Of a stretch of 64,000 bases of DNA, positions 39,212 to 41,926 are shown one piece after another. The notes under the pieces were generated by a model. The model was not told the DNA's origin. It searched no databases and saw only the letters and a list, made by a program, of their open reading frames with translations. Origin of the DNA: Haloprofundus halobius (GTDB lineage: Archaea > Halobacteriota > Halobacteria > Halobacteriales > Haloferacaceae); assembly GCF_020097835.1 (NCBI RefSeq), contig NZ_CP083666.1, positions 2,604,001-2,668,000 on the forward strand. The letters are read 5' to 3'. A program made the translations under genes and the position numbers. Position 1 is the stretch's first letter. Each line of letters opens with the position of its first letter.

Positions 39212-39916
39212 TCAGACGAGCGCCCACGCCGCAAGAACTGCCGCGACGGCAAAGCCGAGCAGGTCGAGACGGCCGAAGCGGAGCGCCGGAAGCGTCGGGT
39301 TCCACGCGAAACACCGGGCTCGGAGCGCCAGCGAGAGGCGGTCGGCGCGGCCGAACGCGCGGTTCAGTCCCGCGATCGTCGTGAGCCGAATTCGCTCGAC
39401 GACCGGTCGTTCCCCGCCGAGGCGGGCCGCCGTCGCCTCGCGCGTCCGCCGCAGGTCAGCCAGCAACAGCGGGAAGAACCGAAAGACGAGCGCGATACCC
39501 ATCCCGAGAAACTGGCCGGGTTTGCCGGGCACAGTACGCTGGATGGCCGCTCGAGTGTCGCGGACGGGCGTCGACCGGACGTAACCGGCGCTGACGAGGA
39601 GAACCAAGAACGCGCGGTAGCTGGCGAGGGCGGGTTCGCGGGCGTCGGCGACGACTACCCACGGCGGGCCGAGCGTCAGCGCCGAGACGAGCGGACCGGC
39701 GAAAAGAAACGGGAGGACGAACCGGTACTCGCGAACCGCCGTCGACGGCGAGAGGCCCGACGAGGCGAGCAACGCGGCGGTCACCGCCGAAAGCGCGAGG
39801 AGACCGCGGGGCGTCTCGTTGGCGAACGCGGCGACGACGAAGGCGAACTGGACGAGCAGCTTCGTCCGCGGGTCGAGGCGGTGGGCGAGCGAGTCGTCGG
39901 GAACGTAGTTCAGCAC
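39212..39916 (-). CDS. bioN: Biotin ECF transporter T component BioN
   Basis: 234 aa, five hydrophobic helices. The EcfT hallmarks are LDPRTKLLVQFAFVVAAF at the N-terminus and two Ala-Arg-x coupling motifs in the cytoplasmic helices: RREATAARLGGERPV and LSLALRARCF (AAR/ARG boxes that contact the ATPase). It transmits ATP-driven movement to the BioY subunit. Its start overlaps the ATPase gene by seven bases, in the order bioY-bioM-bioN. Confidence 0.9.
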   Translation of the reverse strand: MLNYVPDDSLAHRLDPRTKLLVQFAFVVAAFANETPRGLLALSAVTAALLASSGLSPSTAVREYRFVLPFLFAGPLVSALTLGPPWVVVADAREPALASYRAFLVLLVSAGYVRSTPVRDTRAAIQRTVPGKPGQFLGMGIALVFRFFPLLLADLRRTREATAARLGGERPVVERIRLTTIAGLNRAFGRADRLSLALRARCFAWNPTLPALRFGRLDLLGFAVAAVLAAWALV

Positions 39917-40629
39917 GGGTCGGTAACCGGGAGGCGAACGTCGATGTCGGAGAGCGACTCGCGGGTCGACGCCGATTCGGTGTCGCCGTCGACGACGACG
40001 CGACCGTCGGCCATCCCGACGACTCGGTCGGCGAGCGAGAACACGTCCCGTAGGTCGTGGGTGACGACGATGACGCTCGTTCCGCCCGTGTGGAGCGCGC
40101 GGAGACGGTCGAGCACCGACCGCCGCGCGGGTTCGTCCAATCCGGTAAAGGGTTCGTCCAGCACGAGATGGGTCGGCTCCATCGCCAGCGCGCCCGCGAT
40201 GGCGACGCGTTCGCGCTCACCGCCCGAGAGGTCGGCGACGCGTTCGCCTTCGCGGCCGTCGAGATTCACCGCCGAGAGCGCGGCGTCGACACGGCGGTCG
40301 ATTTCGGCCCGCGAGAGACCGAGATTCTCGGGGCCGAACGCCACGTCCGCGCCGACGGTGGCCGCGACGAGTTGGTCGCGCGGGTCCTGAAACACCATCC
40401 CGACGGCGACGCGCGCGGCGACGAGGTCCGCGGAGACGGGCGTGCCGTCGACGGACACCTCGCCCGCGTCGGGTTCGAGCAGTCCGTTGAAGTGGCGGAC
40501 GAGCGTCGACTTTCCTGACCCATTTGCGCCGACGACGAGGACGAACTCGCCGTCGGCGACGCTGAGCGAGACGTCGTCGACGGCGACGGTGTCGCCGTAG
40601 CGGTGCGTGAGGTTTCGGACCCGAATCAT
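39910..40629 (-). CDS. bioM: Biotin ECF transporter ATPase BioM
   Basis: 239 aa. ABC ATPase with Walker A GANGSGKST, Q-loop MVFQDPRDQLVA, signature LSGGERERVAIAGAL, Walker B HLVLDEPFTGLD and switch His VVTHDLRDV. It powers the ECF importer for biotin. The operon context with bioY and the upstream operator decide the substrate. It begins five bases after the bioY stop. Confidence 0.93.
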   Translation of the reverse strand: MIRVRNLTHRYGDTVAVDDVSLSVADGEFVLVVGANGSGKSTLVRHFNGLLEPDAGEVSVDGTPVSADLVAARVAVGMVFQDPRDQLVAATVGADVAFGPENLGLSRAEIDRRVDAALSAVNLDGREGERVADLSGGERERVAIAGALAMEPTHLVLDEPFTGLDEPARRSVLDRLRALHTGGTSVIVVTHDLRDVFSLADRVVGMADGRVVVDGDTESASTRESLSDIDVRLPVTDPC

Positions 40630-40634
40630 TTCGG

Positions 40635-41219
40635 TTACGAGGCGGCGACGGCGTCCGAGCGGACGATACCGACGGCGGCGGCGATTTTCAGCGCCTCGGC
40701 TGGCAGGAACGCGACCGCGCCGACGGCGAACGCCTCGCCGACGCCAATGCCGAGAACGAGCATTAGCCCGACCATCCCAAGCGCGTAGATGACGACGGTT
40801 CCGGCAATCATCGCGCCGACGAGCAGCGGCGTGCCCGCCTCGCGGTAGTCGCGCAGCGTGAGGCCCCGATGGACGACGACGCCGACGAGCGCGGCGGCGA
40901 CGGGGTACGACCAGAGGTAGCCGAGCGTCGGGTTCGCCAGCAGCGACCCGATGCCGGCACCGCCGCCCTCGAACACGGGTACGCCCGCGGCCCCGGCGGC
41001 GAGATACAGCACCATCGCCGCACCGCCCCAGACGGGACCGAGCATGATTCCGGCGAGGAAGACGCCGAGTACCTGCAGAGTCACGGGTGCGGGCGAGACG
41101 GGGTTCGGAAACGAGACGTAGGCGAACGCGCCCATCAGCGCCGCGAACAGGGCGGCGCGGGCGACGTTCTTGACGGTCTCGTCGCCGACGAGTTCGACGC
41201 TGTCCGTCGATGTAGCCAT
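40635..41219 (-). CDS. bioY: Biotin ECF transporter S component BioY
   Basis: 194 aa from the ATG at 41219 (MATSTDSVELVGDETVKNVARAALFAALMGAFAYVS). The BioY family pattern is FPNPVSPAPVTLQVLGVFLAGIMLGP, GAAGVPVFEGGGAGIGSLLANPTLGYLWSYPVAA (conserved GYL..P) and later helices. Six helices bind biotin with nanomolar affinity by family knowledge. It starts the bioYMN operon, and the operator lies on its promoter. Confidence 0.94.
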   Translation of the reverse strand: MATSTDSVELVGDETVKNVARAALFAALMGAFAYVSFPNPVSPAPVTLQVLGVFLAGIMLGPVWGGAAMVLYLAAGAAGVPVFEGGGAGIGSLLANPTLGYLWSYPVAAALVGVVVHRGLTLRDYREAGTPLLVGAMIAGTVVIYALGMVGLMLVLGIGVGEAFAVGAVAFLPAEALKIAAAVGIVRSDAVAAS

Positions 41220-41232
41220 AGGGTTGCTGTCT

Positions 41233-41262
41233 CGTAAACCCACTTTAATTCGTTGGTTTACG
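41233..41262 (-). promoter_or_regulatory. BirA-type biotin operator on the bioYMN promoter
   Basis: CGTAAACC (41233-41240) and GGTTTACG (41255-41262) form a perfect 8-bp inverted repeat with a 14-base spacer. The bacterial and archaeal BirA operator is GTAAACC-N14/15-GGTTTAC, so the match is complete in the core. The spacer carries the TATA-like AATTAAAG (minus strand) about 26 bases before the bioY start, so bound BirA would block TBP/TFB. Confidence 0.8.
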
Positions 41263-41326: not shown

Positions 41327-41926
41327 ATGGACGAGAAGACGGCGGAGCTCCGGGATATCTTCATTGATGCGACCGGGTCGGAAACCGTCACGGAGAGTCA
41401 GGAGGAGGAACGAGGCTCCCTGACCGAAGACGAGGAGAACGTCGAGCGCCGACTCGACGAACTCGTCACGACGATGCGGAGTCGGTACGAGTTCACGAGC
41501 GACCTGCAGACCCAGACGCTCGTGCGAATCGTTCGCGGATTCTACGACGAACAGTCCGACCACGAACTGGCTGCGGAACTGGACGTCGACGAGTCGGCGG
41601 TGTTCGACGCGCGGATGGACCTGCATCTCGTGAGCGAGGCGGATCGCGACGCGCCGTTCGCGCTCGACCAGCTTCGAACGCTCATCGTCGACGACGTGTC
41701 GGTGAGCGACCGGGCCGCCGAACTCGACAGCGACGAGGCGACCGTCCGACGGTACTCGGCTATCGTCGAGGCCGACCAGCGGTCGACCCGAGCGAACGAC
41801 CGCTTCCGCGACGAGTTCGCCGAACTGCTCACCGACTCGGACCTCTCGGCACGTCTCGCCGAAACCGCTCGTGAAGACGGCCTGAAAGACGCGACCGAAG
41901 ATATCGAGACGAACGTTTCCTTCTGA
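41327..41926 (+). CDS. Conditioned-medium-induced protein 4 (Cmi4)-like
   Basis: 199 aa starting MDEKTAELRDIFIDATGSETVTESQEEERGSL. Very acidic, helical. The middle (FYDEQSDHELAAELDVDESAVFDARMDLHLVSE) and later part (VSVSDRAAELDSDEATVRRYSAIVEAD) read like two helix-turn-helix units. From memory, this N-terminus matches a haloarchaeal family named for induction by spent medium. It may be a transcription regulator of stationary-phase genes. Divergent from bioY across 107 bases. Confidence 0.7.
   Translation: MDEKTAELRDIFIDATGSETVTESQEEERGSLTEDEENVERRLDELVTTMRSRYEFTSDLQTQTLVRIVRGFYDEQSDHELAAELDVDESAVFDARMDLHLVSEADRDAPFALDQLRTLIVDDVSVSDRAAELDSDEATVRRYSAIVEADQRSTRANDRFRDEFAELLTDSDLSARLAETAREDGLKDATEDIETNVSF

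Follow-up and report, generated by a model that had tools for sequence, protein, structure and literature searches.

A predicted BirA-type operator over the bioY promoter of the haloarchaeon Haloprofundus halobius, and its counterparts in related genomes

The biotin transporter operon bioYMN of the archaeon Haloprofundus halobius is preceded by an inverted repeat that lies over its promoter, and the locus raises the question of which regulator, if any, recognizes this repeat. The dyad is at positions 41233-41262 of a 64,000-nucleotide stretch of contig NZ_CP083666.1 (positions 2,604,001 to 2,668,000 of the forward strand; assembly GCF_020097835.1), which we refer to as the window. We conclude, with a probability of roughly 0.92, that a BirA-type biotin repressor controls bioYMN through this dyad as its operator. 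It would be a BirA-type operator within a haloarchaeal biotin regulon, with binding and repression attributed to it by analogy with bacterial BirA.

The site reads CGTAAACC-N14-GGTTTACG, exactly as an earlier note on this DNA had described it, and its core GTAAACC-N14-GGTTTAC spans 41234-41261, with arms at 41234-41240 and 41255-41261. We annotate it, without a strand, as a predicted BirA-type operator on the basis of the exact dyad and its conservation at bioY. The note's claim that all 14 core bases agree with the BirA consensus was borne out, spacer length included, against the core GTAAACC-N14/15-GGTTTAC of the published consensus, TTGTAAACC-[N14/15]-GGTTTACAA, in the passage of PMC545781 that quotes it. 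The outer TT/AA of that consensus is not matched at the window site, where TC precedes the left arm and GA follows the right arm. The operator ends 14 bp from the start of bioY, and relative to the bioY ATG its arms occupy positions -42 to -36 and -21 to -15. As the note had also proposed, the dyad lies across the bioY TATA box, which should be the putative element TTAAAG in the spacer (41243-41248, minus strand; -29 to -24 from the ATG), an assignment that we made from position and conservation. In an alignment of 132 bioY sites the arms are near-invariant and the spacer is variable apart from the TATA-like bases, with a peak of AT content at site positions 13-17, some 28 nt upstream of the start codon. 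A leaderless haloarchaeal gene should have its TATA box at this distance (~28 nt).

A dyad that overlaps an AT-rich core promoter could have arisen by chance or be structural (promoter symmetry, or an RNA hairpin), with no regulator behind it, but the counts make this next to impossible. The window contains a single match to GTAAACC-N10..18-GGTTTAC, compared to an expectation of 0 from 100 dinucleotide shuffles, and the exact dyad is present somewhere in 78 of the 392 genomes of the order, compared to 4 for a reversed-pattern control. It is kept across families amid intergenic DNA that has otherwise diverged, and an Rfam scan of the operator region found no family. Chance as an explanation of the dyad is already refuted. 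A scan for sigma-70 promoters and terminators found nothing. The whole 3.95 Mb genome has one exact copy of the dyad with spacers of 12-17, and 46 sites with N14 and up to 3 mismatches, versus 29 for the reversed-pattern control. The sole other site with fewer than 3 mismatches (it has 2) is inside an open reading frame (ORF) on contig C4, a smaller contig, and we rejected it as a second operator; therefore this genome has no second clear site.

The dyad is conserved upstream of bioY in related haloarchaea, as the reading in the earlier note implied. Among 29 loci with the exact dyad in other haloarchaea, 24 have it 8-15 bp before bioY, four have it at bioB, and the remaining one lies away from any bio gene; Haloferax species are among the carriers of exact dyads. 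We then surveyed the bioY promoters of 119 genomes in which bioY has no exact dyad, and 111 of them proved to contain a site with 3 or fewer mismatches (71, 28 and 12 with 1, 2 and 3 mismatches, respectively). The corresponding numbers were 0, 0 and 5 in shuffled DNA (5/119), and 0, 0.4 and 4.9 for scrambled motifs. The surveyed sites nearly always have N14, and their distance from BioY is mostly the same. In a collection of named genomes, a bioY site was present at 45 of 47 loci (Haloferax, Halorubrum, Halobellus, Halorussus, Halobacterium, Natrinema and others). The sites of haloarchaea have the consensus GTMAACC-N14-GGTTKAC, and the third arm position tends to vary symmetrically between the two arms (A-T in 44, C-G in 22, and mixed A-G or C-T in 33). 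Exact matches are rare outside the order, where four of six are at the bioY start of other archaea of the phylum.

Some variants of the site were also seen. The spacer is 13 bp instead of 14 in some lineages, both at bioY (L087, L089 and L276) and at bioB (L184, L185 and L198). At three Halorientalis loci (L281, L284 and L297) the dyad is partly degraded, with 3-4 mismatches and a right arm of GGTAGAC or GGTACAC, and lies some 51 bp from the matched start; regulation may be decaying or have shifted there, or the start may have been assumed wrongly. Sites at L009 (N15, genome G073), L258 and L262 have no bio gene nearby and were taken as chance.

Because the dyad is in a shared intergenic region, 64 bp before a divergently oriented ORF (41327-41926, plus strand, 199 aa), it might control that gene besides, or instead of, bioY. 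The protein had no match in Pfam and NCBIfam searches, and at many loci within the same family a homolog of the gene adjoins bioY. However, the dyad stays with bioY at loci where the divergent gene was not found beside it (L010, L011, L015-L017 and L032-L034), it occurs at bioB in other species, and it overlaps the core promoter of bioY rather than the expected TATA position of the divergent gene. We consider this explanation highly improbable, and rejected the divergent gene as a target on its genomic context.

If the dyad is a BirA operator, what is the repressor? The earlier note predicted a BirA with a helix-turn-helix (HTH) domain elsewhere in the genome, and we found one. There are two proteins of the ligase superfamily, of which one resembles lipoate ligases and the other is a group II biotin protein ligase (BirA) of 324 aa (L002:1204-2178) that matches HTH_11 (E = 1.1e-11), the BPL catalytic domain (2.5e-16) and BPL_C (6.3e-11). 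Its N-terminal winged HTH, at residues 13-55, is over the curated cut-off of PF08279. The catalytic motifs GRGRxxR and KWPND are present (as GGRGRLSREW and IKWPNDVL), the TIGR00121 match has an E-value of 9.9e-47, and the protein aligns with BirA structures from E. coli and S. aureus, through the HTH as well. The birA gene directly follows, at a distance of about 100 bp, an ORF that has the features of a biotin carboxylase and a biotin carrier. Dyad and repressor gene alike are kept in nearly all haloarchaea.

The best link between the dyad and BirA is the joint loss of the HTH domain and the operator in one genus, g17, which counts as a single evolutionary event. In all four of its genomes (G248, G296, G634 and G635) the ligase is 54-59% identical to BirA and the HTH is absent: in every member the match starts at residue 38 at the earliest by tblastn, and at residue 44 at the earliest in a whole-genome search. 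A looser search setting extended one of the alignments into the preceding DNA. Pfam searches of two g17 ligases found the ligase domains alone, and in both of these genomes a divergent gene appears to lie just upstream of the ligase. In all three g17 bioY promoters that we read, both operator arms are gone, while bioY and the TATA-like element are retained. These three promoters (L319, L320 and L321) share the nearly palindromic element cgttYCGTAACGTYnAA over the presumed B recognition element (BRE), just before the TATA, which could be the site of a replacement regulator or could simply reflect shared ancestry.

Related sites occur at the biotin synthase gene bioB, which by the curated biotin-synthase model (matches over its cut-off) is present in 177 of the 392 genomes. 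Of 60 bioB starts read, all 60 have a dyad, with no more than 3 mismatches, that overlaps the start codon, compared to 1 of 60 in shuffled sequence. The left arm is upstream, and the right arm GGTTTAC spans the last base of the ATG or GTG and the next two codons (Val-Tyr); a conserved TATA-like TTTAT is about 28 nt before the start, outside the operator. The right arm also serves as codons 1-3 of BioB (M-V-Y or M-V-D, at L183-L242), so the protein and the operator constrain each other's sequence. No convincing bioB was found in the window genome, where the best match to the biotin-synthase model has an E-value of 1.1e-8. The search for further copies of the motif at bio genes, which the earlier note had suggested, found them at bioB in other species but not in the window genome, which has just one site. 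In family f10 (L192, L200 and L117), genome G026 has lost the bioY operator and keeps an HTH-bearing BirA and a bioB operator, and G038, of the same genus, has a bioB site; control of biotin uptake and of biotin synthesis appears to have been uncoupled here.

Across the order, BioY and an HTH-bearing BirA are strongly associated: 356 genomes have both, 22 have neither and 14 have one alone (HTH counted as present below about 1e-7), giving P = 3e-24, although P-values of this kind ignore shared ancestry and are hence optimistic. Several other points weigh, along with this caveat on ancestry, against a BirA operator. The HTH of BirA scores 50 bits on TIGR00122 (1.9e-13) compared to a curated cut-off of 70, a shortfall common to every genome of the order, although the Pfam HTH cut-off is passed. 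Outside g17, two genomes from other lineages (G019 and G015) have neither an HTH match nor a site, and both are incomplete drafts (63% and 76% complete, respectively). Four genomes (G026, G127, G008 and G182) have an HTH-bearing BirA but no good bioY site; G026 and G182 still carry a bioB site. Finally, with just one site in the window genome, the evidence for a regulon comes from its relatives.

These four genomes, and the presence of more than one TIGR00122-like HTH match in several haloarchaeal genomes, are what might be expected if the dyad were the bioYMN operator but its repressor were a different HTH protein of the same specificity, the HTH of BirA being vestigial. We regard this as very unlikely, because the sequence of the dyad equals the BirA consensus, and because g17 lost the BirA HTH and the operator together while keeping the ligase part and bioY. 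As a separate observation, some groups have neither BioY nor a good match to HTH-bearing BirA: G075, G119, G143, G195, G198, G271 and G319 (g55); G109, G221, G262 and G277 (g63); and G012 and G039 (g32). They recall the report that Halorhabdus utahensis has no biotin ligase and no BioY (PMC3102087).

How might BirA act at this promoter? Downstream of the operator on the minus strand are bioY, an ATPase gene and a T protein gene of an energy-coupling factor (ECF) transporter, in that order. BioY (40635-41219, ATG at 41219, 194 aa; PF02632, 1.1e-35) is the biotin-specific S component, and its closest relative in a public genome collection is from Haloprofundus marisrubri (87%). The ATPase gene bioM (39910-40629) matches ABC_tran (3.9e-30) and TIGR04520 ECF_ATPase (5.6e-70, under the curated cut-off of that model), and bioN (39212-39916, GTG start) encodes a T component of the CbiQ family (PF02361, 1.8e-15). 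When biotin is plentiful, the HTH-bearing ligase would, as in bacterial BirA, carry biotinoyl-5'-AMP, dimerize and bind both arms. From the geometry of the promoter, the bound dimer would cover the BRE and TATA of bioY and block the TATA-binding protein (TBP) and transcription factor B (TFB), so that the importer would be shut off. Under biotin scarcity, with plenty of carboxylase carrier protein left unbiotinylated, biotinylation would keep the ligase busy and bioYMN would be expressed. At bioB the TATA would be free and the BirA dimer would sit on the start. We lean towards a scheme in which one bacterial-type operator is used in two ways against the archaeal machinery, covering BRE and TATA at bioY to prevent a pre-initiation complex and, at bioB, lying downstream of the TATA on the start codon of what is probably a leaderless gene; on this scheme g17 would have dismantled the system by deleting the HTH of BirA.

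A BirA signal in Archaea was reportedly described by Rodionov, Mironov and Gelfand in 2002 (Genome Res 12:1507), in a study that later papers cite for archaeal group II ligases; as those papers have it, the study presented the BirA consensus and its occurrence as a conserved signal in both Bacteria and Archaea. Because the consensus and its conservation were already published in 2002, the window operator is a well-supported further member of a known system. The bioO operator of E. coli, between bioA and bioB, likewise has GTAAACC and GGTTTAC arms in a dyad at a biotin gene promoter. It differs in having 16 bp between the 7-bp arms in the sequence we read (L318), as opposed to 14 at the window site, and in serving two divergent biosynthetic promoters, whereas the window operator lies over just one, which belongs to an uptake operon and is used by archaeal TBP and TFB. 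The BirA regulons of Firmicutes (BirA1 of Lactococcus lactis, and BirA of Streptococcus suis; PMC4877710) likewise combine a group II ligase, a predicted BirA-binding palindrome in the bioY promoter and biotin scavenging. Their promoters are of the bacterial sigma-factor type, and binding of L. lactis BirA1 to the bioY promoter was tested by electrophoretic mobility shift assay (PMC4861984), whereas the haloarchaeal case has an archaeal core promoter. Among delta-proteobacterial BirA sites, the GTcAACC-[N14]-GGTTgACA variants equal the GTCAACC..GGTTGAC class of haloarchaeal sites, but the sites listed are at the biosynthetic genes bioB, bioF and bioW (PMC545781) and the window site is at an uptake operon. 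Among the titles and passages covered by our literature search, we found no experiments on a BirA operator from haloarchaea. Nor did the literature searched contain a description of the order-wide coverage, the start-codon-overlapping bioB operators or the g17 loss, which is not proof of novelty.

The locus offers a testable pair of repressor and operator, with a predictable ligand, in haloarchaea that are genetically workable, and the operator, arms and TATA included, could be put to use in these organisms as a promoter regulated by biotin. It would be a clear case of one DNA signal working with both bacterial and archaeal promoters. For H. halobius itself, in which uptake is probably the only source of biotin, the operator could explain how biotin uptake is controlled.
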